From Adineta ricciae (lineage: Eukaryota; Rotifera; Eurotatoria; Adinetida; Adinetidae), in NCBI GenBank assembly GCA_905250025.1, contig CAJNOJ010000209.1, positions 1-64,000 on the forward strand: a stretch of 64,000 bases of DNA, in the 5' to 3' direction. Below the pieces are notes generated by a model, which was given only the letters and a program-made list of their open reading frames with translations, was not told where the DNA came from and searched no databases. Below are positions 15,622 to 41,684 of the stretch, one piece after another. Position 1 is the first letter of the stretch; every line of letters begins with the position of its first letter. Position numbers and translations under genes: made by a program.

Positions 15622-18600
15622 ATGTATGTCAATGATATTGGCGGGTTTCAATACAAAAGAATGATCAGATGCTGTTGGATACTTTTCTTTGTTCAATTTA
15701 TTCTTCTTGTTGGTAAGAATGTTTGTCGAAATTTTCGAGCAGAACAAGTTTGAATGTGATTTCGACATTTAGATAGTATTCAATGGGCAAATCCAGCAGC
15801 TATTCCTCAGATCTGTTCCAAGGTAAGATTGTTGATGATCGAATGAATTTCATTTACAATTTCAAAAACAAAAAAAAGCTCATTCCGTCGCAACTTGCAA
15901 GTCTTTGGAGACACTTTTAATATCTCACATAGTAAAGTGCGTATATTGCAATTAATCAACCATCAGTCTTACACTTGCATGTTGTTCACCGGAGAGCTCC
16001 CTCAGGTCGATTGCTATTAATCATATGTCTTGTATAGAAAAGAACTTAGCTATTTTCATGAAATTTGATCAAATATTTTCACAGACTAACAATCATGATC
16101 AAAGAAAATTAATGATGTTTTGCAAAAAGACTAAAAGTTCTTTGTTGTATTCATCTAGCTTCAGTCAATGCTTTCTTTTGGTAAATACCAAACATCTCAA
16201 ATCTCTTCAAATATAACTTATGTTCCTCGCCTCTATGCTCAAAATTTCCTTGCTTATTCTTCTATCGATGATTTTCTGTTGTTCATTGAACCTAAACATC
16301 AGATCCATATCTATGACGCTCAACATGTTCAACTCATTCTTACTATCAGTACAGTAGATGTAATCATTGCTACGTCATGTACTTCATTGATTTCTGAATC
16401 TCCGCATGAACTTTTTTTTATCTACGCAAATTATTCCTCAACAAATATCATCGCTTTGCGTGTGTGTCAAGTACGATTTGATATTGATCGGCGAGATTTC
16501 ACTCAAAACTATTGTATTCAACCAATCACACTGCAATATGATCAACCGAACTTACGCGTTTACGGTTTTACTATAAAACGCGATCATGCAGGAACGAATA
16601 AGTCTCTGGTATTCATCTCTGCAGAAATTGGTCTGATCTATAGTATTTTCGATACTAAAACCGGTATTTTGTTGAGCGAACCATTAGTCTTAAATGAAAC
16701 ATTGAATGAAGGCAGCGTTGTCTTGTCTTCGTCGAATTCAATTTATTATGCCAGTAAACAAGAACATTTAATTTATGAATTACGCATAACCAATGATTTT
16801 CGTTTGACTTATGGCAATGTCACCAAAGGCAAAGCGATTAAATCTCCCTTTGGTCTAATCGCTGATGAATGTCATCATTTGTATGTAAAACTATCTGTAA
16901 ACTTGGGTCGATTTTTCGTTTTATTCATTAGATACATTGCGACACGTTCTATGATATTGATCATGTACACACAAGAATCTGCAACAATACGAAGCGTTTT
17001 CTCTAAAGCATCCGATTTACCAATAACACTTGAAAGAATTAATGCAACGACGTATGTTTACGCAACAATCAACAAAAATGCAAAAAAGACCCAACCTTAC
17101 TGGATGTTTAACTTCTTATATTTTACTGGTAGGTTAAACTGACTAAAACGACGTGTATCACTGTTCAATTTGTTCTTTAGAACCGGAGAAAAATCTGCCT
17201 CCAACGCGCCATCCTGGTAGGAATCAAACTTCTTTATTCGCTTTGATTGTTGTTTTGATTTTTGTACCGCACATCATAACCTGCTTAGACCGCCACTATC
17301 CTTCCCTTTGTTGTTATCTATAGTCATTAATATGGATGAAACACCGGTGGTCGATATTACCGCAATCGATAGTGTTTATTTACCAACGCTTTGGCCGTTG
17401 TCGTATTCGTTATTGTCTATGACGAATATGACGAGAGTATACACACAGTTTTTTTCCACACCGAGAAAACCGTTCGGATTGTTTCGAAAGAGAAGATTGA
17501 AAGCAGTGGAACTGAACAGTACAACTGATCAAGGAAATGCATCAATGCAAATATCAGACGATGATGAATCACAATCTGATTCATTTCATCTTATCGATCA
17601 TGAAGATGGTCTCGAAAACGATGAGCTTTTACGACCTGATTATAATGATTTTGATGGTGCATCCCTAAATTATGAAAATGGAACGGAAACTCGTTTACCA
17701 CAAGATACATATTCTGATTCGAATTTCTCTCCTGGTCTTCGATACAATGGTTCATTAGCTAATCCGAATGGCATATCCAGCGATTCCGATACAAAAAGTC
17801 GTTCTCATCAATCTCGATTACCGCATACTAATGCTTCTACAAATTCTGATATTAACAAAAGCTCATCATTTCGCGATGATGAATTATTACTAGATTATTT
17901 ATTGAACCATTCCATATCGGATTTGGCGTCTCTTAACAATACGGATAATATTCTCGAATCGATACCTTCCACTGATGACTTGAAAATCTACTTCAAACAT
18001 CGAGCAAATCTTACCGAAGATCAAAGAATCCAGATAGAAGCTTACCTTGTTCAACGAATCTCATCAGATCCATATCTTGCCTCTAAATACATTACTAGCA
18101 CCATCGATCCTGCCATACCTCCTGTCAATGACAACTATTTATTACCTAAAGATGAACCAGCAAAAGAATATTCTCAAGACATGCTATCCTATATATTGGA
18201 TCGCTTCAATCAAACAAAAGCAGTGGAAGAGAATTTATTTTCCTATGATGAGTTACAGACTTATTTAGAAGGAAACAGAGATTTTACACTAGAAAAACAA
18301 GGGTATATTAAAGCGTTCTTAGCTACACAGAACTTACCCGATCAAAAGCAATTATTTGAAGATTCAACATTAGCTGGCCTACCAACGACAACTCTTCCGA
18401 GTGATAACGAACTTAATGAAGATGTACAACTCGAAGAACTATTGAAAAAGATACCACAATCTGATTCCGAATATTACAATTTGTCTACTGATTCGGAAGA
18501 AATATTAATTTCCAAAGATGACCTTCGATCTTATATATACGGTGAAGGAATGTTATCGAAAGAACAACAAACACAGTTCCAAGCTTATGTTGCCACACAA

Positions 18601-21600
18601 AACTCTTCTGATCAATATCTACTCACCAAGTATATAACAACAGCAACAATTGCTACCACTACTATTGCATTATCGTCTGAAATAGAAGAAGTACCGGAAA
18701 ATCAATTACCATCAAAGGATTTTACAAGTAAAGATGAAAACGATGATCAGCGTCCGAAGGAAGAAATATTCATAGATTTTGAACAAAACAACCGCACGAA
18801 CGACACTGATGATGGTTGGTTCAATGCCAACGACTTACAAGGTTATCTCGAAGGACACGCTAATCTTTCTGATGCTCAACAAATACAGATTGAACGATAT
18901 CTTGCCAAGCAACCATCTCTTGACAGAAGTCTATTTACTAAGCATTCAACGACAACAACAACATCAATATTGTTAACTACAACATTCGTATCGAGTGACA
19001 ATACCGATCCAGACAATGTCGAAGAAGAAAATCCAGATGAAAAGCCTAGTGTAGATGATATACTCGAGAAGATACCGGAGGCAGATACCGAACATTTTAA
19101 CATCACTGTAGGATCGGAACAGGTACTGATCGCAAAGAATGATCTTCGATTGTTTTTCGAAGGCGTAGGAAACTTACCAAAAGATCAACAAAAACAAGTC
19201 GAAGCATATTTAGCTTTGCAATCGCTCACTGAGCGCCGCAAGTCGACAGAATATTTGCCAGCAACGGCACCTGATGATATTTCGTCAACAGTTCGTACGA
19301 ATTCTGACTTCGTAACTGAAAGACAAGACCATGAACCGTTAATCGATGCGGAATTACTTCCATTACTACTTGAACACTTCAATGATTCCGTTGAAGCTCG
19401 AACATCCTCAATTACAATTGATGATTTACGTTCGTATCTACAGGGAAAAGGAAATCTGTCTGAATTTCAACAGGAAATTATCAAAGAATATTTAAGCAAA
19501 GAATTATCTGAAATTCAAAGTTCACCTTCTGTAGATTCAACTAGTACAGTTCCACTATCTACTACTATGGTCGTGCAAGAATCACTCGATGATAGCAACG
19601 AGCATAAAGATAATGAATTAGAAGATTTGTTAAATAGAATATCATCTACTGATTCTCACTCTGGCAACTCTTCCAGTTCTACTGAAGAAATATCAATTTC
19701 AAAAGATGAGTTACGTTCCTATTTACAAGGACGCAAAAATCTCTCCAAAGCTCAGGAGACGCAAATTGAAAACTACATTTCGAAATTACCACTACCTGAT
19801 CAAACATTATTTTCAAATTATCTCACTACCACTACTCCTCAATCTTCCACTACCTCAACATCCGTTTTAGACATCAACTCCATCCTACAACCACAAACTA
19901 ATCTTTCCTCAACTCATCATACTGATTCAAAACTCCTCTCAACCATTCTCCAGCATCTCAATCACACCCTCAACACCTCCTTCACCATCAACGATCTACA
20001 ATCCTACATTCAAGGACACACTAATCTCTCTACCGATCAACAACACAAGATCAAAGAATATCTCGCCGAACACTCATCACCACTACAAAACATCATCTCT
20101 CAATATTTACAGACAACAACAACGTCACAACCGTCCAGCACTGTAACTCCACTGAACATCGACGATGATGAGAAACTAGACGAGTTCCTGGCGAAGATTC
20201 CACTGAGCGATCCAGAGCAAGTGGCGATTAGCAGAGAAGATCTTCGATTGTATCTACAAGGTCGAAGTAATCTATCGAAAGATCAAGAAGCACAGATCGA
20301 AATGTATCTAGCAAAGGAAACAACAGTCGACGAAACAAAGTCTTCGCAGTATGTGACGACAAGTAGTCCATCAGCGAGTGAGGGTGAAGATGTTGAAGCA
20401 ATAGTTGATGGATTAGAGAAGGGAAAGTACTCGAATGAAGTTGTTGCTGCTATCGTTGAACATTTGAATCGATCAAGTGATGCAGAAAAGAAGATTCCAT
20501 TTAATATTCTTGATCTGCAATCTTATCTACAGGGGGATAAGAATTTATCATTAGCTCAAGAAGAACAAATCAAGGAGTATCTTGATAACAATCGATCTCC
20601 TCTTCAAAATATTGTATCTCAATACACCAAGGATCTCACAGATTCATCAACTATTGCTCCAATAACTAGTGATGCAGAAATAGAAGATTTCTTGGAGAAC
20701 ATAGTTGACATCAGCTCAAATGTCTTCAACATTTCTACAGACTCAGAGTCGAGAACAATTTCAAAAGACGATCTGCGATCATATTTGAAAGGTCATGGAA
20801 ATCTGTCAAAAGCTCAAGAAGCACAAATCCAAACGTATTTACACGAATTGTCTGCAACAAATAGTGCACTATTTTCCAAGTATTTTACATCTACTCAAAA
20901 ACCACAAAAAATACCCCAAGAACGAAATCAGTCTTCTACTATCGATACGGACGACGATATTGATTCAGAAATATCTCTACCAAGTGGCAGCGAGAGTAGC
21001 TCATCTCAGTACTCCACGACGACTCGAGTATCTCCTGCGCGCGCACCAGTTGATGATCATAATGAAGAAGAAAAGTTCAAAGACTTTTTAAGGAAAATTC
21101 CACAAACTGATTCTAATTATTATAATATTTTCAGTGGTCCTGGAGGACAGTTGTTCTCCAAAGATGACTTATTGTCATTCCTCGAAGGTCGAAGCAACTT
21201 ATCAAAAGAACAACAAGCTCAAATTCAAGCATACCTAATTAAAGAATCACCAGCTGATCAAGAAACATTTGTGAAATTTCTAACCAGTACAACAAAACAA
21301 CCAACAACAACGACATTTAGTAGCAAAGATGTAGAGGACATGGATAAAGTCGAAGAAATACCAGCATCTATCCTTGAGAAACTGAATCATATCATCGCCA
21401 CAGAAAACAGTTCATTTACTTTAGATGATATCCACACATACCTTCAAAAACGCGGCAATTTATCAGCAGTGCAACAATCACAAATCGAAGACTTTCTTGC
21501 TAAACAACCAACCTCCATTAACAAACTTTTATTGTCGAAACATTTCACAACTACTCAACCATCAAGCACAATATATTCATCGGAAGAAGGTATCACTCTT

Positions 21601-24600
21601 GATGATCTACTAAAGAGAATACCATCCGCTGGCTCTGATTATTTCAACATTACTACCGGATCAGAGCAGGTACTCATTGCAAAGGATGACCTTCAGTCAT
21701 ATTTAGAAGGGGAAAAGAACTTATCAGACATCCAACAGGCACAAATCGACGCATATTTGACTCAAAGATTATCAGCGAACCGAAATCTTTTTTCCAAAAA
21801 GTTAACTACTATGTCAACTCTAGAATCATCATCGACGTCAAATCCAAACGTTTATCAACAATATATTCATGCACAAAATCAGACAACCGGTCTAGAAAAT
21901 ATGCCGTTTACCGCTGATGAGTTAAATGCCTACATCCAGGGTCGGAGAAACACATCATTAGTTCAACAAAAGCAGATCGAAGACCATCTCGCCAAACAAA
22001 CAGCGTCGACCTCCACTCCGGTTTCGCGATCTTCAATCGGTGTGCTTGTTTCAACAGAGGCACCATTGTCAGATGATAAACAACGTGAAGAAGAAGTTAA
22101 GTTACAAGACTTAATAAATAGATTACCAGAAATAGATCCACATTCTGTCAACTACTCGAACGATTCCGAACAAGTTCCTATTTCAAAAGATGATATACGT
22201 ACATATTTACAAGGGAGAGAAAATTTATCAAAAGCACAAGAAGCACACATAGAAGCATATCTGGCTAAACATTCATCATCCGCTCAAAATATACTTTCGA
22301 AGTATTTAACAACCAGTACTTCGAAACCGAGAATACCTGTGACTGCTGGAATCAACATCGGAGAATTCTTTCAAAGGGGAACGAATAAATCGCTTACTGA
22401 TCTTATACAGAATGAAGAATATTCACAAAAAAATTTACTCATGCTATTCGAAAAAAACTACAATCAGACAAACTCGACAGAAGGAAAATCGTTCAGCGTG
22501 GAAGATTTACGATCCTATGTACAAGGACAAGCAAATATATCGGCAGAAAAACAAGCACAAATTCAGATCTATTTAGCTGAACAGTTACATTCCAATCAAC
22601 ATATGTTTTCACAATATTCGACTACGGACATATCGCCTGGCAGCAGTTCGACGCTTGATGACGCAAAATTACAAGAGCTTCTCGATAAGATTCAAGTAGG
22701 CGATTCTCTATACTTCAATCGTACTGGCGATCAAGAAAAATCAATCTCCAAAGATGATCTACGTTCCTATTTACAAGGACGCAAAAATCTCTCCAAAGCT
22801 CAGGAGACGCAAATTGAAAACTACATTTCGAAGTTACCACTATCTGATCAAACATTATTTTCAAATTATCTCACTACTACTACTCCTCAATCTTCCACTA
22901 CCTCAACATCCATTTTAGACATCAACTCCATCCTACAACCACAAACTAATCTTTTCCCAACTCATCATACTGATTCAAAACTCCTCTCAACCATTCTCCA
23001 GCATCTCAATCACACCCTCAACACCTCCTTCACCATCAACGATCTACAATCCTACATTCAAGGACACACTAATCTCTCTACCGATCAACAACACAAGATC
23101 AAAGAATATCTCGCCGAACACTCATCACCACTACAAAACATCATCTCTCAATATTTACAGACAACAACAACGTCACAACCGTCCAGCACTGTAACTCCAC
23201 TGAACATCGACGATGATGAGAAACTAGACGAGTTCCTGGCGAAGATTCCACTGAGCGATCCAGAGCAAGTGGCGATTAGCAGAGAAGATCTTCGATTGTA
23301 TCTACAAGGTCGAAGTAATCTATCGAAAGATCAAGAAGCACAGATCGAAATGTATCTAGCAAAGGAAACAACAGTCGACGAAACAAAGTCTTCGCAGTAT
23401 GTGACGACAAGTAGTCCATCAGCGAGTGAGGGTGAAGATGTTGAAGCAATCGTTGATGGATTAGAGAAGGGAAAGTACTCGAATGAAGTTGTTGCTGCTA
23501 TCGTTGAACATTTGAATCGATCAAGTGATGCAGAGAGAAAGCATACATTTACAGGTGATGACTTGCAATCATTTCTGGAAGGACATCGAAACTTCTCTGC
23601 ATCAAAATTAGACGAAATCAAAGAGTATCTAGCTAATCAATCATCTGCAATTCAAAATATATCTTCTCACTACTCAAAGGGTCACCTTGATCCTAGACTG
23701 GATGGATACACTAACGGTGGTGACAGAACTCTGAATGATCTCTTGGAACGACTTTCTTCAATCGACGCATACCGTCTCAATTCATCTACAGATGCGGAAC
23801 GGTTAGCCGTCACCAGAGAAGAATTACGGTCTTACCTACAAGGTCGTGGAAATCTTTCCAAAGCTCAAGAATCTGAAATCAAGGCATATATCGCTAAACA
23901 ATCACCACAGGATCAGGAATTATTCTCGAAATCGATGACATCGACTGAAACTCCATCCACAACGTTGGTGACTGTTGTCGAGAAATCTACACAATCGCAT
24001 AAAGGGAAGAAAGGTGGTTCTAGTAAAAAACTACAAACAACAACTGTTGATTATAACAAGCCAACGACAGCATTCGAAGAAAGTCTATTCTTTTTCGACG
24101 ACTTGCGAGCTTATTTACAAGGTCGGCGTAACTTATCACCAGCAAAAATCGCACAAATCCAAGCTTACCTAGCGAAGCAAGCAGCGGCAAATCAAAGTAT
24201 ATCGTTGTTGTTTTCAATCACCACCCGACCAACAACAGCAGTCACCTCGAGGACTGGCAAATCGTCTGATGAGCAGCTTACCGAAGATGATGAACTCAAA
24301 GCGTTATTAAAGAAAATACCATTGGTTGATTCAAAATTTTACAATGTATCTACCGGTTTAGAAGAAGCATTGATTGCGAAAGACGATCTACAATCTTATC
24401 TAGAAGGCAAAAGAAACCTATCAGCCACTGAGGAAGCTCAATTTCAGATGTATTTATCCAAACAGCCTTTATCAGATCAAACTATGTTTTCGAACTATCT
24501 GAGGAAAACAAAAGTACCAGACGAACTTTCTACACCTGGCATGGATGGAAAATTAGTAACGAATAACGGAAATGAAGATCATACACAACAATTGCTACCA

Positions 24601-27598
24601 TTGGATTTGGAGTATTTGAATCGAACTATTGGCTCAGATGGAATCCTATTTACTCTTGATGACTTGCAATTATACTTACAGAGACGCGGAAATTTAACTC
24701 CAGCTCAAATCGCACAAATTCGAGCTTATTTAGCTGCACAAAGAGCATCCAATCGAAGTATTTTCTCGAATGATACAAAACCATCGCACGACACGTCAAG
24801 ATTAGATGAAGTAAATTTGGAGCAGTTCTTGAAGAATTTATGGGCGTATTTAAACAATACGAATATTTCCAGTGATGTCGACAAGGCACTCTTTTCCATA
24901 GACAACATACGAGCTTATCTACAAGGTCGATTAAATCTATCGAAAAGCGATGAAACAAAAATGCAATCGTTTTTAAATAAATATTCAACGTTAAGTAAAA
25001 ACACTCTCAATGCAACGAACACAACCCTTTCCCCTTCGGAGCACCCGCACTTATGGTCGTCATTTTTTCGTTTCTCAGATTATTCGAGCACTAAATCATC
25101 AAAATCTCTTTCAGACATAGATAAAACAACAACAACAACTTCTACTACTACCACTACAGGCACTTCACTATCTCAGGAGAGAAATTCCATTCTTTCAACG
25201 ACCAGCAAAACATTTTCAGGTACAACTGATTCATCACAATTTACCGATGCATTTCAATCCTTGTATGAACTGACATCAGCACGAAAAACGGGTACATTCA
25301 TAACATCCGATGTACCTAGACAAACACTAACAATCACACAATCGGATATATCTTCATCAAGACATGATCAACAGTATTTCAAATCAACCCTTGCTTCCAT
25401 GTTATCTCCTTCAACTCAGAAACCAACATCACAAAAGGAATCGAACTACGATACTTCCAGAACATCACAGGTTTATTCGAGATCGTCACACTCGGATCAA
25501 ATGGAGACGTCCACCACTACTTTCTCAACATCGAGTTTCTTCTATTCTACACAGTCAGTAGTAGCTGATAGAACTCCGCCACATTTGATTCCTACTAGTT
25601 CTCAAAGAGAAAGTTCGAAGCCGTATAGTTACTATCCGTCCCCACCAACACCTTTCTCGTGGTTGACTGATAGATATCGCCATGGTCTTACTTCTGACCG
25701 ATCTGCTTTTGACTCGACGTCGACACTTTTTCCTTCCTTTGATGCGCGGAGAACAGCATCAACGTACACTCCACCAAATTTTGATCTACAACAAGGATTT
25801 ACTACCACAAATCGTAGATTTCGTAGTCGAAAACAAAAGATTATCCGTTGGCAAACTCAATCAACACCAAGCACTACGATGTCTCCTATTCTCACCACTA
25901 CAGTAACCATATCTCCAGATGAATCAACCAAAACTTCGAGTATATCAGATAAACTTCTTCGAATACCATCTTAATCCGATTTACGTTTTAGATCATCTTT
26001 CAACAACTGTGACGCCAACATCATTATGGTATGCTCAACTCGACCCCTTCAATCAACAGCAAACGATAATTGTCAAACCACCATCAAATCGAAACGATCC
26101 TAACACATTCCTATCAAATGAACTTCTCAATGAACTGTTTCACAATATTTCCACATCATCAAACTCATCCGTTGACAAATCAGTGTATTTTGATCTAATT
26201 GATCATCCTTCATCTTCGTGGAATCTTTCCGTTCAATCCAATGATAGTTTCATACTTGACATTGCATTACCATTGTCGAATTCTACAAGTCAAACCAACT
26301 TGACATTTACAACAATTGAAGCCGAACGTTTTTCGACGAATATTCTCGGCAAATCAGTTCATTTTCAAATAGACCGTGTTCAAGCAAAACAATTCTCTTT
26401 AACAATGAATAATACTGACAATGAAACCGAATCAAACCGTCGAATTCAACATTTATCCGATGTTACTATTGGTCACGTAACAAGTGAACAATTTCATTTG
26501 ACTCTACGTCAAACGGACAACATCAAGCTGCACGTGCAACAAGTCGATACGGCAACAGCCGAACTGCAACTCGATGATAACTTTTGTTCCAATAAAAGTA
26601 GTCTAGCGATCAATTTAAATCTTTCAAAAAATGGTAAATACAACTTCTCCTTCTGTCTACTTCTTCGATTTCGATTCTATTTAGGAACAATTCGTTACGG
26701 TAACCGTACACCTATTCACATTGGACCAGTTTTCACTCGAGTACACATGCCTCAACAATCCTGTGATCGTGATCAACCATTAGCCTTATTTTTCGATATA
26801 TGTGAACGAGATAATCCATGTTCGAATGGTGGCACATGTATTGCTCTCATGCCAGATTTCAATGATACATCTTACTCTTCGATCAAAATAGGACAGATTG
26901 GTTACAAATGCAATTGCCCATTGCATACAACTGGTGACCACTGTGAAGTTTTCCAGTATCCATTAGGATATTGTTTCAATGGTGGAACTCTTCTACAGAT
27001 CTATGATCGGTTCAATAAATCGGTTGAAAAATGTCTTTGCGCTGCAGATTTCTATGGGACATTTTGTGAGCAATATGTTGATAATTGCGTTGGAGTGACA
27101 TGTTCAAATCATGGTATATGCATAGATGATATTGAATCACACAAATGCTCGTGTTTCGATGGATTCTACGGTGCTGCGTGTGAGCGAAAACGCATACAAA
27201 CAGTTATTCTCCAAGCAGCAACTCGATCGTTTGGCATCATTGCAATATTACTGATTAGTGCCATCGCTTGTTTGGTTGTTGCAAGTGACATTCATACGTA
27301 TATCATGCGTAAACAACAACGGAAACTTTTATTAGAGAAAGCACCACGTGTCACCTCGGAAATCTTGGAAAATTCAGTTCTTTTACTTGGATTCGGTGAT
27401 GCTCCAATTGAAATGAATGATCTTACAAATATTCGTATTATGCGAAGAGGAAAACGTTTGAAACATCGGCCAGCGAAACGAAGAGCACGAATACGAAAGA
27501 CAAATGGGAAACTGCCCATTGCAAAAAGGCAACTTATTTCAAAAGCATCCACCGAACCTGAACTCATAGCAATTCGACCTGCTGAAAACAATGTTTAA
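15622..27598 (+). CDS. Giant repeat glycoprotein with EGF-like modules and membrane anchor (about 3,800 aa)
   Basis: Not a family I recognise. Exon 1 (15622-15712) encodes a signal peptide (core ILFFVQFILLV; Met at 15661 is an alternative). Later exons: 15773-15822, one unresolved small exon or more between about 15880 and 16158, then 16159-16880, 16932-17128, 17181-17216, 17324-25939, 25992-26633 and 26685-27598. Order: signal peptide; a ~350-residue Cys-poor ectodomain of beta-propeller-like character; 26 repeats with core DDLRSYLQGRxNLS; a ~300-residue Ser/Thr-rich stalk; a beta-rich domain; EGF-like Cys clusters (about 26,760-27,190); a transmembrane helix (FGIIAILLISAIACLVVA); and a basic ~100-residue tail. 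The large exon alone codes 2,872 residues. Likely a heavily N- and O-glycosylated cell-surface or matrix protein. The 5' exon chain is the uncertain part. Confidence 0.8.
17217..17323 (+). other. Intron of the giant gene that encodes a membrane helix if retained
   Basis: Splicing CCT G|gtagg to ctatag|TC ATT joins the upstream ectodomain to the 2,872-residue repeat exon in phase. If the intron is kept, the same upstream frame runs on through a hydrophobic stretch (SLFALIVVLIFVPHIITCL) and stops at 17321-17323. That would give a short membrane-anchored isoform without the repeats. Confidence 0.6.
19712..20486 (+). repeat. Copy 1 of a 775-bp near-identical internal duplication
   Basis: Covers repeat cores 7-9. 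It matches 22760-23534 at a fixed offset of 3,048 bp (1,016 codons) with no gaps. I count 7 mismatches, six of them in the first ~200 bp. The next ~510 bp are identical, including synonymous positions. Confidence 0.95.
22760..23534 (+). repeat. Copy 2 of the 775-bp near-identical internal duplication
   Basis: Covers repeat cores 18-20 and pairs with 19712-20486. Similarity stops abruptly at both ends: upstream linkers differ, and downstream one copy continues into core 10 while the other continues into a different core (21). This marks discrete duplication or conversion boundaries. Confidence 0.95.
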
Positions 27599-29521
27599 CA
27601 CTTTGAACTTTTCTCTCTGCTTAGTTTCTTTTGCTTGTATTTGATATCCATATTTGATAGTATAAAGAATCTCTTCATTGTCTCTTACAATTCAAGCGTT
27701 TTCTTATCAACGGAATGATGAATACTTTCCTTGTCATAGGAAACAAAAGCAGTTGGTTGTTCTTACATAAAAAGAACATATCTTAGCACAATTACATGCA
27801 TAATTGACCAACAGTTGTTCGGAAATATTAATGATCCCTTCGAGTCAATCGTTTTGTCATATGTAGCATCGTCGTACCGGTCAATGTTGACATTTACAGA
27901 ATTGAATATGAAATGAAATCACAGCATACGCTTGAACATGGCTGATTTCCACCGATGTGAGAAGTATGTGTTTAATAAAAGAATACCTCGCACGTCTCTT
28001 CTCACAATTGCATCATCGTACAGAGAGAATGATCAGATAACGAATAAGATCATTTGAATTCAAATGTGTAGAAGTAAAATGTAAACAAACTCTTTTCTAC
28101 AGATTAACAAACGTGTGATGAAATTGATTAAATCAATAGACGTGATGTTATCCAAGAAGAAAAAAAGAATGACACCGTGTGCAGTGATTTGCATATGATA
28201 AAAAATGGTTGAACATAATTCTATGGAGAAAATATCATCAANCCACATGCTGTTTAAATGTTTGTTTTACCCACATGGAGAGAAAGAGAGATCATTGATC
28301 TTTTCCTTTTGATAGATGTCTTACGAACGTGCCTGAATGTTTCCTATTCTTCTTTTTCATTTCGAATGTATCAGCAGTTATGTGTATGTCGAAATGCATA
28401 CTGATGAGTTTTTATATTGACTGTTGTCTTTTGTGACGTTCATTACGTCATGTTGATCTTCTTGCAGAACAAATGACATGTGAGAAATTAATGATCCGTA
28501 TCAGATCGAATATTGACGTTTGAAAGCGAAAGACAAGAAGTAACGAGATCAATGAGAATACTTACAGCCATTGTTGAGATGAATGGATGAAAATAACGAA
28601 AAATAACAAGGAGAGATTCTTCATCGTTGAGATTAAATGGGATATGTCAGTGAGAAAACATCGTTGTGAATGATTTATGTCTAATATATTGTTGTCAATC
28701 TTCTCATTGACTTGATAAGATCTGGTTCGAGGATAAGATTGACGAGCAGAAAATGAACTAACAAGGAGAAACGATTCTTCTGCTTATTGTTGCGTATATC
28801 GAAATGAAGGTGTTGATGATGTCGATGAGAATATCGATGCTTAGAGAAGAAAAAGAGAGAACGAATGAGAGAAGTTAATAGCGATTGGTTGTTCATCCAA
28901 TATGAAGAGAAGAGAAACTGTATAATTTTCTTCTATTCTCTTTCTCTCTCTCTGTCGCTTTATTCATGGGAGTTTGTATGAGTATTTCTAACACTTGAAT
29001 GACAAGTCTCTATTCGCTCTCTATATCACACAATCAACTGATTTATGTGCACAGTTGAGTCAATTAGTGTCACATTCGAGAGAGACTGACCAAGTGAGAG
29101 ATTACTAATGTGTCTGCTACTACTGACCAAATGCGATTTATTGCAATATTAGTTTAGATCGATTTTCTTTCATACAGTTTGATCCGATGATCATTGATCA
29201 AACGTAAACTCATCAAAGAAAACAACTCGAAATAGCCAAATTTAATTAATTGAAAGGTTTCATATCTTACAGAACAACATTTTATTTTTCCAGAGAAACG
29301 GGAAATGTTTGTTAGAGAACGTTGCCAACATGTGTGCGGTGACTTTCACCTTGAAAGAATTGTAAAACCACAAAACAAAGTTATTGCACCATCAGTATGA
29401 AATGACATCTGTTGTGTATATAAAAATATGTTTTTCCTCTAACTTGCACTACTTTTCTTCGGAGCTCTTTGAAGTAACAAGAAAAAAAAAGTTTGGTTTT
29501 GAATTGACCTACACGAGCAAG
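27599..29521. other. Intergenic region with one ambiguous base
   Basis: About 1.9 kb of AT-rich sequence with no convincing reading frame; the short frames on the minus strand lack motifs. One N sits at 28242. A CT-rich run lies near 28,935-28,955. It probably contains the 3' untranslated region of the giant gene and the promoter of the PARP gene. Confidence 0.5.
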
Positions 29522-32500
29522 ATGGATTATAATTCATCAGATGAATCAGATGGGAATGTTTTGGCAAACAAAAAGAAATTGGTTAGTGACCTTGTTAAGC
29601 TTTGTTATTTTTGTTGTTTCGAGTAATTGGTATCTATAGTTCGTTTTTTTTCCTATAGAAATCGACAACAAAACGCAATGCAAGTGATGAAGCACAATTG
29701 AAGAATGGGTTAATGAAGCCGTCTATGAAAAAGAAAGCGTCGAGCATGACAAAGACGAGTCAACGAGTAATGATAAGAAATCAAATGAGTGGATATAAAC
29801 AATGATAAATTTTGTTTTTTTTTTGCAGAAATCGGTTCAGCCAGATCAGAATAGAAAGGGACTCAATGGCAAATATTGGACGGTAAGTGAATCGATTTGA
29901 TTGTTCAGCTTAACCATCGAAACTAATCGTTTTAGGATGCTTTATCGAAGCGAGTTGTGAATGGTAAGCATACTGATGAAGATTCTTCGTCAGATGACAC
30001 TTCTTCAACATCCACATTGTCCGAAGAATCTGGGAGTACAACCTCAGTATCATCATCATCATCTGATGATGATGATGATGTTCTTTACGAAAAACAATCG
30101 TTTGTTACGTGCCGAGGTGCAACAGATACATTTTATTTATGTCAAATCTTGAAGGATGTTTATCAAAATACTAAGAAAATTCCAATCCGTTGGTGTTCAG
30201 TCATCGGCGAAGATGGTGATAATACGAAAATTAGTACTAAAACACAATTTAAACTCAGTTACACGGATACTCTTGATCCAGCAGCGATTCTACTCGGTGT
30301 ATCTTCTGTGATTGAACATTCAGGTGGCGTCTTTTCATTGAAAAAACAAGATATCGTTGATAGTAGTCGTTTATTGCAAAAATCCATTCGTGGTGAATCG
30401 CTTTCGTCGGATGATATGATGGATTTATCGACTGAACATCCACCTTCATCTAAATCCAAGAAGGCCACTAAACATATTCGTTTCAATTCAGACGAAGATG
30501 AAAGTAGTTCTTCTTCTTCAGAAGCATCGACAACAGAAGTTCCAGTAAGTAAAAAACGTAAACTCGGCTCAGCCAACAAGAAATCTCGAAAACAACCACC
30601 GAAAAAACGAACACGAAAGACATCAGATGGGTCGGATGACACAACAAGTAAGTTCACTCTTTGTTTGAAGAATCTTCCATCGGAAGCAATTAATCCTTAA
30701 TAGCCAAGCGAAAACCACGACGAAAGAAAAACGTTCCCGACGACGACGAAGAACATGATGATGATGAAATGGATACATCAACAACCAAGAAAAGTAAAGA
30801 TTCTCTCGTGAAAAAGTTCGATCAACGTACAAATGTTTTCTTTTCATTTAGAAACAAAACCTGCACGCACGCCAAAAGTGCAATTATTCAAAGTTCATAG
30901 TAACAGCTCACTGACGAAAAACCCAACAGTAACGGTTTACAAAGCAGAACCGTTCTTTGAAGACAAGTAAACCAGAACATTTGCTTAAACCAGAAGACAT
31001 ATTCGATTTTTTCTAGTCTACCTGTTCCTTTCATTTCGTCGTATGTTCAAAGTAAATTAGCCATTCGTGCTGTTAACTTAAATGATGCCAAATTATTAAA
31101 AAGTCTTATTAATGATACCAATCACGTTTGTTCGGTAAGATGACGGATTAGTCGAAGAGAATCTTTATAAACTTTTTCATTGATTTGACTAGGTCCATGT
31201 ATATCGAAGTCTATTTACTGATTTAACGGCTGTCCATTACGCAATCAAAAGTAATAATATCGAATTAGTGAAAATCTTACTTGATGATATCAAATCGCCG
31301 AAAAAAACTCGATGTCCATTTCCAACGATTTCAATGGTTCGACAAAGTACTGGAAAGTAATGATAAAAAATTTGATGCCATCTCTGTCATAAAACGGATC
31401 TAATACTTCTAGCGCCAATACTCACACATTTGGTTTTCGTACGATGAAATTAATGGCAAGTCGTGGAGCTAAAGAAGGCAATGATGCATTGAATAAAGTA
31501 ACTAAGTTTTGAATTCGATTGAGAAATCGTCGATGATTTCTTCCTTGTCTAGGATTCTATGTCAGCGGAAGGATTTCATAACGTTAGAGAACTCGTCTCT
31601 TTTGCTTTACAAAACAACTGCTCACGGGAAATGTACGATTTCCTAATCAAAACGTACAAAGACTCAGTAAGATTTCTTCTGGATTACCCTCAAGAACATG
31701 CATTCAAAATATTGCTTTCCGTAGTTACGTGTGGAGAGTATTTACGATAATATTTATAAAATCATCGTCGCCGGCCACCATAAATTAGCTGCAAGTATTG
31801 TTGGTGATGTTAAAGAGAACACATTTCACGGTTTCAATGCTCTCCATCATCAAGTTTGTTTCTGAGCAATCATCTTTCATAAAGTCAACAAGATTCTGCT
31901 TATTAAGGTTCTACTTTATGATACTGAAGATATAACCATCAATCGAGTAGCAAGTGTTGTAAAGAAAACTCGAGAAAATTCAATGGTGCGTTTACATTCA
32001 ATGATTTGCTCGGATACAAATTACATTTTCTTTAGATTACACCGATACATTGCGCAGCAATCAATCCAAATAGCAAATATTTGAAACAATTATTGAATGC
32101 GATGCCGGAATACAACATTCTCGATAAATACGATCGCCGACCAATTCATTATGCTGCAGCATGCGAAAGTTCAGAACCACTTGAATTTCTTTTATCAAAG
32201 TAACTAACTTGAATTTCAAAGTTCAAATCTGATTTGCTTTTTCCTAGACACGTCAATATGAACGATGTTGATCGTGGAGGAAACTCTCCCTTACACATCG
32301 CAGCTATGCATGGTCGCGCACATAACGTCGAACTTTTACTTCGTACTGCGAAGGAACAATCCGAAGGGAACGAAGATGAAAATGAAGTTCAAGAGAAATT
32401 TGGTTTAGCATGTATCAATCGAATGAACAAATCGCGATTCTATCCATTACACTTAGCTGTGCTCAACAATCATCTGGTATGTACACTACTATTCAATCTA

Positions 32501-35500
32501 TCCGGATAACAAATTCCATTCGCTTAGGATTGTGCCAAGATTCTTCTTGATTATGACGCTCCTATCAATGTTGTAACTAGCGCAGCACAAAAGATTACAC
32601 CATTGATGTTCGCCTGTCAGAAAGGTTATTTAGAAATCGTTCAATATCTGATTAGCAAAGGTGCAGTAGTTGAAGCACGCGATCGTTTTCAACGAACGCC
32701 GCTCATTCACGCATGTATGTGCGGAAATGCAAACGTTGTTTCGCATCTATTACATATTGGTGCGGATCCTAATGTTTTCGATTCATCGATGAATACTGCT
32801 TTACATTACGCCATTGCTTATGGTTGGTATTTCTGTGTGAAAGTGTTACTCGAAGCAGGAGCAAATTTGAACTGTATAAATTGTTGGCAAACGACATGTT
32901 TAGCCATCGGCTTTCTCAAAGGACATTATGGCCTTTGTGACTATCTTCTTACTGAGCACAATGCTGACATTAATTTTACAACGGATGATGGCTTGTCGTT
33001 AGTTATGTTAACTGTTAGTCAAGAAATATCCACGTCGATTGTAGAACAGTTGGAATATGTAGTTGAAAAACATAATGCAGATTGTACAATTGTGGACACG
33101 AACGGTAGCAATGCCGTAAGTTTATTCTTTGATGTTGATCTTTTCTCACTTACGACTGTTCTCGGTTTAGTTTCATTATTTAGCTGGCAATTTATGTAAT
33201 CAGAATAGTACCTATCTTGTAAGTGAAATCCAGTAAAAAGTGTAAGGAATTCTAATTGAAAATTTTTGATAGGATGAAACTTCGAAGAAAACTCTACATG
33301 AGAACTATTTCAAAGTTGCACAAATCCTTCTTGATCATAATTGTGAACCGGATAAATTAAACTCCAAATTACAATCACCGTTGATGATTGCTCTTGAAAC
33401 GGGAAACTTCATTCTTGTCAATTATTTGATTGACAAAGCAAAAGTATCGATCAATGCTGACATTAGTTATAATGGCAAAACACTTTTACACTATTTCGCT
33501 CAAAAATGCGAAAGATTCGATCTCATGCAAGTTTTATTGAAATTGGTTAGTAAACGATTGATTTTCATACGAATTCATCCGAATTCCATTGTAGCCAGTG
33601 ACAGATGAAGTGAGAAAAATGGGTCAAATCTATGATAACAATGGTCGAACACCATTGCATTATTGTGCATCGATATTTGATCGATTCTGTCGTAAATTCA
33701 AAGTGAGTTCAGATGGAAATGAGTATTAACAAAACACTTAATTATGATTTGTTAGCTTTCAAAAGGTACTGAAAAGCTAGAGAAACGTTATCAATCGATT
33801 GTTCGAATGATCGAATACTGTTTACAATCTGCTGAATGTGATCCCGATGCTGAAGTCAAATCAATTGATCAAGTGAAAAATTCTGAGACCGAAGAAAACA
33901 TTGAAGACGATGGTGACAATATGGATGAGCCTGCAGAAGAAAACGAGGAAGATCATAACGAAAGTTCCAGTAGTAGTAACGAGGAAGACAAAGATGGAGA
34001 TGAGACGGAAAAAGAAACACCTGTTGAAGATGAATCATCGGATGTGAAACTAAAAGAAACAAGTATATTTTCATTACTTCATACTGTTCGATTCATTGAT
34101 CAAAGCATAACACATCCTCTGGAAACTTTTCTGAAAAAAACCAACAAAGTCAATGGTTTACATCATGAAACTCATCGCACACCTTTGCTCGAAGCCATTC
34201 ATCTTCGAGAAGTCCATACTGCTCACATGTTAATCAAACATCCATCATGTGATGTTAATCTCGCTGCGTCGAAACTCTCCCGTGAACAACAGCAAACACC
34301 CTTAATATCAGCATGTCGTTTGCAATTATCGCCAATTATTCGAAGTTTGCTCGAACATAAGAAATGTCAGATTTTATCAAGCGATTCGAATAATAACCAA
34401 GCATTTCATTACTATTTACGAACATCAAATCGTATTAATGATTACATTGAACTATTGAACTTATTTGTCAAACGATTAACAGAAAGCACGAAAAATCCAA
34501 TGAATATTCCCGGCAAACACCAGCGTACGCCATTACACATTGCTGTGTATTATAACCTAGGTACAATTGATGCGATTACAAATATTGAAAAGATATTGAT
34601 TGAAAATGGAAGTGATTTGATGCTCAAAGATGATCTGGGAAATATTCCATTGCATAATGTATTCTTGAATAAAAATATCGGCGACGATCCTGTTGAACTA
34701 TGCGTTCTCCTCCTCAAAGCCATGAAATCCAAAGGAATCGATACGAAAAATAACGAAGGCAACACGCCGTTACATTTAGCAGTCGTAAGTCGTTTTACAT
34801 TTATTAGAAACTGTTGACTCAATTCGTTTATCTTAGGAAAAATGTTCGACAGTATGTGTCATGCTTCTACAAGAACATCAGGCTAGTTTATTGATTAAAA
34901 ATAATCTTTCTAATTCGATCGTCGGTACTTGTATTGCATCGGAACATCTGAATTTGTTTATAACGTTTCTTCAACAATCAATGGATATCGATTTAAGTAC
35001 AATGCATAAGGTACGTGTGGAGGAACCAGATACAAATGAAGAGGAACAGAGTTCTTCACTCGGAACCGTTGCCAAACGAGTAACCCATCGAGAACGAAAA
35101 TCAAAAGAGAATTCTTCAATTTGGAAATGGTATTACAGTCAAATTGACAAGAATGAAGAATACAAATCCTATTCATTGATGTACTTAATCATCCAAAGTG
35201 ATTGGCAAGGTGCATTATCATTAGTTCTAAACGATATCTCTCGTTTTCACTTAACATACATCCAAATCATTGAAACCGCAATAGCGAATGACAAATTGAA
35301 TCTTGTTCTTCGTCTTCTCTTACGTTTGAAGAATGAAACTTACTCTCCCGAATTGAATTCATCGAAACAAAATCTCTTTCATTTGATTGCGAACACAAAA
35401 CCATCCAATGAGTATCTTCTCAAACAAATTCTCGCTGCGCTCATTGAATACAAATTCAATTGGAACACACCGGATATCCATGGCTCGTATCCGTTACATT

Positions 35501-38391
35501 ACGCATGTGTTCAACAAAATTTTATCGTTTTGAATTGTTTACGTGAACATTTTCCACGTGCTTTTAACCTTCATCAAACCGATGGATTTAATAATACAGC
35601 AAGTGGATTGTTATTCTGGTCAATAGGAGAAAAAACAACATTGGCAAAAGATGAACTTCGAGGATTGATTAAATCCGAGAAACAATTGGATTGTTTATGT
35701 AATTATGATAATGAAATCGCAAGAAATCCTTTGTCGTTCGGACATGTGTCTTCAGAAAACAACAAATCGGCATATCCACCGATAAGAACAAGCCAAATAC
35801 GAACCTCACCACTGATTCATGCCGTTGTTCATAATAATTTTGAACTAGTCAAATTTTTGTTAGAATCGAATGCGGACGTGAACTTCACAGATGAAGATAA
35901 ACAAACACCATTGATGCACGCTGTTCGAAAGGTAAATACGATTGATTATTCGACGAATTTACGAAATTTCATGTGCTTTGCTTTAGAATGATATCGACCT
36001 AGTGAAACTTCTTTTGAATAAAACCCACTCAATCGAAACTACCGAGTCATCTAACAAACGAGCTGTTAGAGCGCCTCGAAGATCATTTGCTCCAAAGCAC
36101 AGACGACTTAACTTCTATTTTGGTGCGAAGATACATCGTGCGGCAAATCATTCGGATAAAGCGTCAGCGAATAAAAGATCCAGAGAATTTCAAATGACAT
36201 CAAAAATTGATTTAAACGCTCTCGATAGAAATGGTCGCAGTTGCATTCATCATCTAATTCAACCGTTCATCCATGGTTCCTATCGAAATAACTTGGAAAT
36301 TCTTCATTTACTTCATTCCTGCGGCGCTACGTTAACCATCGCAGATCGTTCAGGTCTCACCCCATTACAATACAGTACACAAAATCATTACCAACATTTA
36401 TACGAAGAGTTATCGAAACTAGTTTACAATAAACCAGCCTCTATCCGATCGTTAGCAAACACATTTACAGTCGTTGATCCGAACAAAAATCTTTTCGGTG
36501 ACAAGCCCGACTTTTACCGTGATGCTCAAAAATTAATCGACGATTACATTTCCATACATACCGCGAAAACACATAATGCTGCCTATCAAGTCGATCGTGC
36601 GTCGGGAATGAGCTTAATTGGTACAGTTCTCATAGATGCCGATAAAAACGAACCATACGATGTTCGTCTGACAAAAATCGATGTTAATTACGGTCGATAC
36701 GGTCTGTACAATTTCTACCGTATGCAAATCATCGTACACAAGAGTAAATCGAATTTGTATTTCTTGTTTACACATTGGGGACGAATCGGTGATGCAGAAG
36801 GTCAACATCAACTGACGCCATTTTCCACCTTGGATGAATGTCGAAAGGAATTTTTGAAAGTGTTCCGAGAAAAGACCGGCAATGCATGGAAGGATACGGA
36901 CCAGTTTGTACCGAAAGCAAAGAAATATACCTTGGTGAAATTGAGCGATCGAGAAATAAAGAAACATTCGACTGTCCCAATTGATTTTCATCGTTTACAA
37001 GCAGAAAATCAACATCCACCAACGAAAATTCAATCATCTGCGCACGAAACGCTAATGCGAACATTGATCAGCCGCGAAGCAATGCGAACTAATCTTCACA
37101 AAACTCAACTCGATGTAGAATGGATGCCTGTTTCACAATTGAAGCGTGAAACACTGGAAAGAGCACGAGATTTACTAATCAAAATCAAGGAAAAACTCGA
37201 TGAACAGGAGAAACTCAACAAAGATAGTCCAACTAACAAAACAGCCGATCAGAAACAGGAATTACAACAGATTCTCGAAGCAATCTATCAATATACAAAT
37301 GAATACTATACATTAGTTCCTTTAAATGGTTACTCCGATGAAAAATTACCCATTCTTAATGACGAATCGCAATTAAAACAACAAGAAAAAATGCTCGATG
37401 ATCTGTTCGATCTAGAATTATCCTATAAGATTCTTTTAGGAGCACAAGCGAATTTGAAATCGATCTCTCCGTTAGATTATCTGTACAAATCGATAAACTG
37501 TCAATTCGAAGCGATGAATCAAAACGATCAAGATTCACAGTTGATTTTGAGATATATTTGGGCGAGTTCACCACAAATCGACGTCGAACAGATTTTCAAA
37601 ATTGCCCGACCGAAAGAGGATGAGCGATTGAGAAAACGGAACGTTAACAATCACTTTTTACTATGGCATGGAACCAATATTTGCAATTTAATCAGCATAC
37701 TCTCGCGAGGTAATTTCAGCGATGTGGAATTGCGTGTAAATCACACTCTCTGTTTAGGCCTTCTTGTTGGACCATTGGTTGCAACGGCAACTGGAAGTTT
37801 ATTCGGAACGGTAAGAGAGAGAAGAATTTTGAAAACAAGAATGAGTTGTGATGAATTGAATGTGCTTTGTAGGGAATATATACAGCAGATGTGTTTGCGA
37901 AAAGTCTTGGCTATTGTTCGGGTGTTAAGGACAACGATCAAGAACGATGCTTTATGCTCCTATGTGAAGTTGCGTTAGGAAATATGAAGGAAGTTGGTAT
38001 ACAGAAAATTCAAAGCAATAATGATGATGAAGATGAAAATGAGGAAGAGGAAGAAGAGGAAGAGGAAGAACAAGAAGAAGAAGAAGAAGAAGAAGACGAT
38101 GTTAATGATGCTAAATTAGATCTAAAAAAATATCAAAGTCGAAAAGGTGTCGGTCGAAATACACCCGATCCTAAGCATACAATTGTTCGTGATGATGGTA
38201 CGTGCAAAAGTTTCCTTTCCTTTCTGCGAATCATATTTGTTTGCGTCATCTTAGGTGTACAAATCCCACTTGGGCGATTGATTCCAAACAAGCAAGCGTC
38301 ACAAGGTTACTACGGTCTCAATTACAATGAGTATATTGTTTATGATGAAGCCCAAGTTGCTCTTCGATACCTTGTTCAATTTCGCCGCTAG
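29522..38391 (+). CDS. Ankyrin-WGR-PARP poly(ADP-ribose) polymerase, 24 exons
   Basis: Exons: 29522-29581, 29659-29766, 29829-29882, 29936-30647, 30704-30793, 30852-30966, 31017-31134, 31193-31356, 31413-31497, 31553-31666, 31725-31853, 31908-31985, 32036-32199, 32248-32476, 32528-33115, 33171-33218, 33273-33545, 33595-33702, 33756-34784, 34837-35931, 35987-37709, 37758-37810, 37873-38197, 38255-38391; 7,599 nt, 2,532 residues. Order: Ser/Asp- and Lys-rich nuclear-type N-terminus; a possible BAH-like module near residues 125-225; many ankyrin repeats (about 380-1,900); WGR domain (THWGRIGD, W2051); PARP regulatory helices; catalytic domain. The H-Y-E triad is present: H2348 (LLWHGT), Y2382 (GIYTAD), E2513 (NEYIVYDEAQV), predicting polymer-forming activity with NAD. 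The architecture resembles nematode PME-5 rather than vertebrate tankyrase, which has SAM and no WGR. An acidic insert interrupts the catalytic fold. Confidence 0.92.
38023..38100 (+). repeat. GAA/GAG/GAT low-complexity tract coding an acidic insert in the PARP catalytic domain
   Basis: A purine-rich microsatellite-like tract in exon 23 codes for a run of about 25 Glu/Asp residues. It sits between the conserved VALGNMKEV segment and the GVGRNTPDP segment, where PARP1-type enzymes have a short basic loop. Confidence 0.9.
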
Positions 38392-39833: not shown

Positions 39834-41508
39834 TCAACGCGAATGTCCATCATTATCTTGGGCAAGATCAAATTCAGTCCAAATGGGACAATGATCACTG
39901 ACTAAACCACCCCAGGTCCAACCAGCAGGTATCCACATACTTGTTAAATTCTCTCGAATTACACCCGATTTATCTTAAAAGACAAAAAGTTGTTTCTGGA
40001 AATTTATTATCGACGAACTTTACTTGTACTCAATGCTTTGACTTCAGTGGAAAGCCAAATGTTATCTGCACATGTTGAACCTTGTGGTGTTTTCAAACTG
40101 ATGTTTGTATTCTGTTGAATAACATACGAATAGTTTCGTTGGACTAATGCAGCAAATTCCGATGCAGTTGGTGCGAGATTAAAGTCACCAAAAATGATTG
40201 TATGTTTTTGTTCTAAATAGGAAAGATTTGATGGTTGTTTTAGTAGATTGACAACTTACCAATAGTATCACTCATCGCTTCCGCTAAAATCGACAACGAT
40301 AAAGCTTCATCTTTCGTTCGTTCGTTTTCGTTTTCATCCAGTCGTCGTGCTTTCAAATGGACATTAACAAAAACAAATTCATATTTGTCATAGATACGAA
40401 AGATAACAATAAAAGGTAAACGTGTAAAATAATTCTTTATTGGTAATAATGATGATTTTCTCAATTCAATACCAATTGATTCATCATAGATAAAACCGAG
40501 ATATTCACTACTCTAAACAATGCAAAACACAATTGTTTTTGCGCTACTTTTCATAGGTTAGTCTTACTTGGAACATTCGGCCAGAGACATCACTAACTGT
40601 GTATTTCCATTGACCATTATGACGATGTGGCCAATCTTTAATCAACGGTATCGTTGGATTATTCAATTCTTCAACTATATATCCGAGTGCTTCCCGATTT
40701 CCTATTTCTTGGATACCAATAACTGAAAAACTGAGAAGGAAAATCGTTGACGAGAGAGAAAGGATATTCGTGTTTTTACTTATGCTCGAGTATAGTTCGA
40801 CAAATAACTTCTCGTACACCTGGATTTTGCACTTTTTCATTAGTTAATTGTTGTAAATTCCAAGAAGCAAAACGCAAAATTGTTTGTTTACTTTCATAGA
40901 CTGACGAAGGTCGTTGAGGATTTAATGTAAGAAGTATTGTTTGTAACTCCGGTGGTAAAGTTTCTAATAACAATGATGCCATAGAAAGTGAATCAGACGT
41001 TGTATTATTATTTCTGTTCAATGATGGATAGAGATTATGAACCGATGGATCGAGTATTGAGGATTCACTGACTGATGTTGGTAAGCGTCGATATTCGACG
41101 GTAACATAAGCACGAATACTTGCTAGAATGACATAGTCAATTCCTTTGATGTTTAGTAAGTCTTCGATGAAACGAAATGGACCTTTTCGTTCACGTCGTT
41201 GGAGAATTCGCTTGATCAGAATTGGTGTTAGACCAGGAATAGTCAATAATTGGTTGTAGGTAGCTGTGTTTAGATTAATCAAATCATGTTTATTATCGTA
41301 GATTTGTTGAGATAGACAATCTATGGTAATATCAGGTCGAATGCGATCGAAGAGGTCAGGATGAATTCCATTGATATATAAAAGTTCGTTGACACGCTTA
41401 AAACCATGATTTAACTGACGATATCGAAGAATATCTTGTGCGATTCGACGAGTTATACCCGGTAACAATAATAATTCATCTTCCGTTGCTGTATTCAGAT
41501 TGATTGAA

Positions 41509-41540
<32 letters not shown>

Positions 41541-41684
41541 TACATTGATTGGAAGAATTGCTTGTGGTTGATCGAACTTTGATCTGGGCAGAAAATATCG
41601 ACGACGATGTTGATGAGGAGGACTGGATATCGAACTCGTTTCACCTGATGTTGGAAAGCAACTATTTATGCCACCCATCGCCAA
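39834..41684 (-). CDS. EEPD1: Endonuclease/exonuclease/phosphatase family domain protein 1, 5 exons
   Basis: Minus-strand exons: 40780-41684, 40568-40730, 40260-40512, 40024-40212, 39834-39973; 1,650 nt, 549 residues (human about 569). Two helix-hairpin-helix modules (INLNTATEDELLLLPGIT and LINLNTATYNQLLTIPGLT) precede an EEP nuclease domain. The domain begins at LRFASWNLQQL and includes GVREVICRTIL, GIQEIGNREAL (catalytic Glu), FVNVHLKA, FGDFNLAP and the terminal VSDHCP. These are the canonical EEP residues. In vertebrates EEPD1 is a 5' nuclease linked to resection at stalled forks; a cholesterol-efflux role is also reported. A run of about 10 Asn from an AAT repeat precedes the first HhH module. 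Confidence 0.93.
41511..41541 (-). repeat. AAT trinucleotide repeat coding poly-Asn in EEPD1
   Basis: About ten consecutive AAT codons (TTA on the plus strand) just before the first helix-hairpin-helix module. Likely length-variable. Confidence 0.9.

Follow-up and report, generated by a model that had tools for sequence, protein, structure and literature searches.

A predicted giant membrane glycoprotein of the rotifer Adineta ricciae with 26 putatively helical, N-glycosylated repeats, and a diverged copy with a Ser/Thr-rich stretch in their place

Transmembrane mucins with EGF modules (MUC4-like mucins) consist of a leader, a long Ser/Thr-rich region, and EGF modules beside one membrane helix, and many transmembrane mucins, not all, also possess a SEA domain. 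EGF modules are likewise found in receptors of the Notch and teneurin type, the other domains of which are LNR and ankyrin repeats or YD repeats. Adhesion proteins usually carry repeated modules on a membrane anchor, and the stalks of membrane glycoproteins are often regarded as passive length. The locus described here lies in a window of 64,000 nucleotides from Adineta ricciae (contig CAJNOJ010000209.1, positions 1 to 64,000), where an open frame of 2,917 codons (17221-25974, + strand) holds 26 copies of a repeat core. Two further regions of the same genome serve for comparison, a close homologue on contig C163 and a diverged copy on contig C85.

The gene model around this frame comprises seven exons, joined by GT-AG introns of 51-342 bp with matching phases, and predicts a protein of 3,757 residues and 423 kDa. 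Its parts, all on the + strand, are as follows, with the evidence for each.

15661-15712, + strand: exon 1, with the candidate leader MIRCCWILFFVQFILLV (ATG, hydropathy peak of 2.0, GT-AG intron, fitting phases)
15773-15822, + strand: exon 2, short (GT-AG introns, fitting phases)
16165-16880, + strand: exon 3, conserved N-terminal domain (dN 0.005 and dS 0.17 between homologues; 55% identity to the C85 copy)
16932-17128, + strand: exon 4, remainder of the N-terminal domain (49% identity to C85; preceded by a 51-bp intron)
17181-17216, + strand: exon 5, short linker exon (phase-1 GT-AG introns)
17324-25939, + strand: exon 6, 8,616 bp, with an N-terminal acidic region, 26 repeat units and Ser/Thr stalk (frame, core list, splice model)
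25027-25939, + strand: Ser/Thr-rich stalk 3' of the array (sequence; dN/dS 0.77 from frame residue 2600 onward)
25992-27598, + strand: exon 7, juxtamembrane domain, EGF modules, membrane helix, basic tail and stop (Pfam, PDB, 51-58% identity to C85)
27230-27286, + strand: membrane helix FGIIAILLISAIACLVVAS (highest hydropathy of the whole protein, 2.78 over 19 residues)

Exons 1 and 2 are the least certain part of the model, and one more small exon may lie inside 15823-16164. A small exon resembling exon 5 seems, as judged by eye, to be present in C85. The predicted protein opens with a hydrophobic leader and the N-terminal domain; an acidic region leads into the 26 units and the Ser/Thr stalk, after which come the juxtamembrane domain and the EGF modules. 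The single membrane helix, at residues 3636-3654, follows the EGF modules and precedes the basic tail. The EGF modules match PF00008 in two stretches (E 2e-8), and EGF-type models are the only ones to reach E 0.001 when the exon 7 frame is scanned against Pfam. The top PDB sequence match of that frame is a Notch EGF fragment (E 1.8e-13), and its PDB matching is confined to the stretch of the EGF modules. The N-terminal domain has neither a Pfam match nor a significant PDB sequence match. An earlier note, made from the letters of the window alone, had proposed a giant membrane glycoprotein with a signal peptide, a Ser/Thr-rich stalk, EGF-like modules and a C-terminal helix; Pfam, hydropathy and the gene model support a single-pass protein of this kind, with a hydrophobic start as candidate leader.

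The central feature of exon 6 is the array itself.

17866-25026, + strand: array, with 26 repeat units in an alignment of 78 residues per unit (unit alignment; cores at 17974-24990)

Core starts run from 17974 to 24901; a pattern located 24 of the 26 cores and a further search the remaining two. All 26 lie in a single exon, as the earlier note had it, and the modelled length of that exon corresponds to the 8.6 kb claimed. The same holds for the turn of the core, where Asn-Leu-Ser/Thr forms an N-glycosylation sequon in 23 of 26 copies; the three exceptions, units 2 (DFT), 3 (MLS) and 5 (NLP), are the same in both homologues. A second sequon, absent from the earlier note, is found 6-16 residues ahead of the core in 22 of 26 units, and the repeat region as a whole contains 65 sequons against a mean of 28.9 in 1,000 shuffles (maximum 43). 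The residues between units are of a different composition, with the inter-unit linkers (409 residues) consisting of 40% Ser+Thr, as compared to 17% inside the units. Two alternating linker types had also been described, and, by a rule of our own in which Lys or Arg before the core defines type A, the alternation holds for units 2-25 but breaks at 11/12, both of type A, and at 25/26, both non-A; unit 1 is ambiguous because its core is preceded by Thr. Mean unit identity is 0.357 at lag 2 versus 0.283 at lag 1 and 0.296 at lag 3, and a peak at lag 11 (0.451) corresponds to the likeness of units 7-10 to units 18-21. A profile built from 52 units, taken from both homologues, scores 2,032 bits on the window frame and 2,024 on the homologous C163 frame, both of these being its own source sequences; among the other frames of the three regions searched its best match reaches only E 0.75.

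The core of about 30 residues is not a complete module and is instead part of a unit of roughly 70-80 residues, in which it would supply the middle helix pair of four. AlphaFold2, run on a 52-row alignment of units, predicts helices at 2-14, 36-44, 51-63 and 66-75 (mean pLDDT 67, pTM 0.50); the turn Asn, residue 48, falls in the loop that leads from the second helix to the third. In a model of a two-unit fragment, computed from 22 rows, a low-confidence linker separates two helical modules (pLDDT 59, pTM 0.34). The helices predicted on either side of the core are not in the earlier note. The models support, at low-to-moderate confidence, no more than a helical hairpin core within a slightly larger module.

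Contig C163 is 93.2% identical to the window over 30 kb and carries a frame of 2,881 codons, also with 26 units; the two proteins share 87.7% identity across 2,874 aligned residues, with a dN/dS of 0.295. Indels between the homologues are multiples of three in 9 of 9 cases in the modelled coding exons versus 8 of 41 elsewhere (Fisher p = 1e-5), where elsewhere means the rest of the same 30 kb, exons of other genes included, and none falls within a core. The Asn of sequons is retained at 71 of 72 positions as compared to 67 of 86 for other Asn (p = 5e-5), with 23 of 23 kept at the turn and 48 of 49 outside the turn position, and the Ser/Thr at sequon position +2 remains Ser/Thr in 70 of 72 cases versus 528 of 594 (p = 0.02); both p-values are optimistic, because homogenised units count twice and positions are not independent. 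Part of the Asn conservation may be structural, for the turn, since unit 5 holds its Asn without a sequon in both homologues. Taken together, the in-frame indels, dN/dS and retention of sequon Asn make the array look translated. Constraint is strongest at the ends of the protein, in the main N-terminal exon first (dN/dS about 0.03) and the EGF exon next (about 0.15; dN 0.022, dS 0.145), while dN/dS is 0.21 for the cores, 0.29 for repeat-region positions outside them and 0.77 for the stalk after the array. This stalk, at 25027-25939, has a dN/dS far above that of the array and a low dS (0.085-0.098). Synonymous divergence along the big exon ranges from 0.085 to 0.288, as compared to 0.128-0.226 across seven further coding stretches, of which two belong to the same gene, and the peaks (0.288 and 0.259) are two 800-bp windows with homogenised tracts.

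These tracts involve two blocks of four units within the array.

19725-20472, + strand: homogenised tract copy 1, units 7-10 (49 of 51 allele-grouped sites inside, 0 of 147 block-grouped sites)
22773-23520, + strand: homogenised tract copy 2, units 18-21 (3,048 bp downstream; placed from unit starts)

All 147 sites that group by block lie outside the tract (60 upstream, 87 downstream), whereas 49 of the 51 that group by homologue lie within 19725-20472; one further site groups crosswise. The two blocks share a run free of differences, of 455 bp in the window gene and of 456 bp in its C163 homologue, and across this identical run the homologues differ by 4-14% per 100 columns. Furthermore, two 18-bp length differences between the homologues (19829 and 22877) recur in both blocks. 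The likeness of units 7-10 to units 18-21 appears to go back to one older duplication, and the simplest reading of the site patterns is that each homologue recently homogenised its own pair of blocks, by conversion between repeats. The tract, which is present in the assembly, could in principle be an artefact of assembly or polishing, and the identical 455-bp stretches can for that reason be counted in favour of a decaying or mis-assembled open frame that makes no functional protein. We regard such a frame as highly improbable, because the coding indels are all in frame, dN/dS is 0.30 over the aligned residues, and two assembled copies hold 26 units apiece.

The copy on C85 is far more diverged. 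Its N-terminal exons are 55% and 49% identical to those of the window gene and its EGF/membrane part 51%, a part in which synonymous sites are saturated (pS 0.77). In PMC5916493, Adineta ricciae is given a GC content of 35.6%, a homologue KS of 0.135 and an ohnologue KS of 1.27; C85 is named an ohnologue here because the two levels of divergence, and a GC of about 36%, fit a bdelloid rotifer and these values. Gene order on C85 is as in the window, with a frame weakly like exostosin, the copy of the repeat gene, and an ankyrin/PARP-type gene, but the microsynteny is imperfect, a search of 30 kb of C85 having given no convincing counterpart of the helicase-type gene (about 9.3-13 kb, next but one upstream). 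In the window, the ankyrin/PARP-type frames (29936-37978, + strand) probably form one gene, with ankyrin repeats and WGR, PARP regulatory and PARP catalytic domains, and have an ordered match in C85; a GAA/GAG-type tandem repeat (38024-38096) follows directly. Other frames of note lie on the - strand: one at 28060-28266 in which an X in the translation reflects an ambiguous base, several at 47541-52333 that look extracellular by eye, and one at 40779-41684 with two helix-hairpin-helix (HHH_3) stretches, which passes the cut-off of bacterial T2SSK as a sum (35.4 versus 24.2 bits) and by no single stretch.

Between the shared ends, C85 has a middle frame of 934 residues with 21.3% Thr, 17.5% Ser and 20 sequons, the last 190-odd residues of which correspond to the window gene's conserved juxtamembrane region; roughly 700 residues are then left opposite the array and its flanking parts. 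The unit profile matches no frame of C85 at better than E 1. Consensus searches of the whole genome, with at least 50 matches to E 0.001 and at least 49 to E 10, place cores, among the matches listed, on the window contig and C163 alone. With shared ends and no unit found in C85, the array would have arisen in one of the ohnologues or disappeared from the other. Since a Ser/Thr-rich, mucin-like stretch stands where the window gene has its units, these two forms of stalk appear interchangeable within one architecture.

From the shared ends and the constraint on them, the retention of sequon Asn, the Ser/Thr-rich linkers, the indel pattern and the predicted helices, the array is fairly probably the N-glycosylated, bead-on-string stalk of a type I membrane glycoprotein, for which a mucin stalk can substitute. 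Each unit would fold into a small bundle of about four helices, with N-glycans on the turn of the core and just ahead of the core, and Ser/Thr-rich linkers would connect the beads. At the base of this stalk would sit the EGF modules, the membrane helix and the basic tail, and at its far end, kept away from the membrane, the strongly constrained N-terminal domain; opposite the array, the ohnologue has roughly 700 mucin-like residues rich in Ser/Thr. Conversion between repeats would keep part of the array uniform within each homologue. What the data show directly is the array with its open frame, the conservation of the sequons, the ends shared with C85 and the lack of a detectable unit there, and the homogenised tract as assembled. 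Glycan occupancy, the bead fold, the extended shape and the role of spacer are what we infer, and a spacer presenting the N-terminal domain is the simplest role because a Ser/Thr-rich stretch takes the place of the array in the ohnologue. Against a stalk stand the low to moderate confidence of the predicted structures, and purifying selection on the cores, which a pure spacer would require for folding and glycosylation but not otherwise. The Asn that unit 5 keeps without a sequon and the imperfect microsynteny with C85 also count against it. The main rival is a multivalent adhesin or matrix tether, of the sort suggested in the earlier note, in which helical cores would bind a ligand or one another and 26 copies would provide avidity. 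Greater conservation of the cores than of the remaining repeat region, the 26 units in both homologues and the usual arrangement of adhesion proteins speak for an adhesin, but the ohnologue has the same architecture without any detectable unit, and among the matches listed no binding-domain family passes its cut-off on a single unit. An adhesin is thus a rather doubtful alternative, and the Ser/Thr-rich stretch of the ohnologue favours a stalk or spacer.

The repeat had been described as without a named domain, and this stands at single-repeat cut-offs in Pfam, NCBIfam and PDB but not for the protein as a whole, where the Pfam family HBD (PF18534) passes as a sum over repeats (55.9 bits versus a cut-off of 32.9). 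HBD is the most recurrent Pfam family, with matches at E ≤ 1 to 16 of 52 units (the runner-up matches 6), and since 0 of 26 reversed window units match it, the likeness goes beyond composition alone. The repeats might be divergent HBD members sharing the function of that domain, and it can be counted for this that the listed whole-protein and unit matches, which span 14-58 for the whole protein and 13-58 and 32-58 for two of five fully tabulated units, all stop at position 58 of the 84 in the profile. However, the best of the 52 units, unit 8, reaches 18.0 bits (E 0.0033) against the single-domain cut-off of 32.9, and no match extends along most of the 84-position profile; stretches in the whole-genome search cover 13-58 and, on C163, 32-80. 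In that search other contigs outscore the best stretch of the array (up to 21.6 versus 16.1 bits), PDB sequence searches gave no match of note, and PF18534 was not found by name in the literature searched. Membership of HBD is accordingly improbable, and the family is treated as a weak resemblance. Other Pfam matches of the five fully tabulated units are all below cut-off, the nearest being SLS1_N (21.8 versus 24.4 bits), NCBIfam gives three matches to the array frame, none close to cut-off, and the consensus repeat has no sequence match in PDB. Ten weak PDB matches of the unit profile, the best to a ribosomal protein (E 0.031), were judged to be chance. In searches that reach close relatives only, no relative was confirmed among 76 stretches of genome_contigs (one core peptide pattern), 107 stretches of viral_contigs (two patterns), or phage records (one consensus). 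The repeat is apparently a new family inside an otherwise recognisable kind of protein.

Tentatively, and with slightly less than even confidence in the whole, an undescribed helical, doubly N-glycosylated domain, perhaps restricted to one animal lineage, would form a stalk of 26 beads in one gene while its ohnologue has a mucin stalk, a swap of folded N-glycan for disordered O-glycan structure on the same receptor ends, with ongoing conversion within the gene. If true, a gene pair with the same ends would be a natural experiment on the function of folded, N-glycosylated versus mucin stalks, and the homogenised tract would exemplify conversion within a gene, separately in two homologues. Conversion during break repair is debated for this kind of animal (PMC5916493).

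Compared to known systems, the window gene resembles Notch and selectin EGF proteins in its EGF modules and differs from them in an N-terminal domain and repeats without a significant PDB match; when the three main frames are compared with Pfam up to E 5, neither LNR, ankyrin or YD repeats nor a SEA domain is matched. Its resemblance to HBD is a weak profile similarity over the segment that covers the core (profile about 13-58), with no single unit above cut-off and partial coverage. Where MUC4-like mucins have only a PTS domain, the window gene has predicted helical repeats with N-sequons, and it also has a conserved N-terminal domain. It shares with these mucins a hydrophobic candidate leader, a Ser/Thr-rich region, EGF modules and one membrane helix, and the composition of its linkers and of the C85 frame fits an O-glycosylated stalk, with the ohnologue the closest of all to the mucin arrangement.
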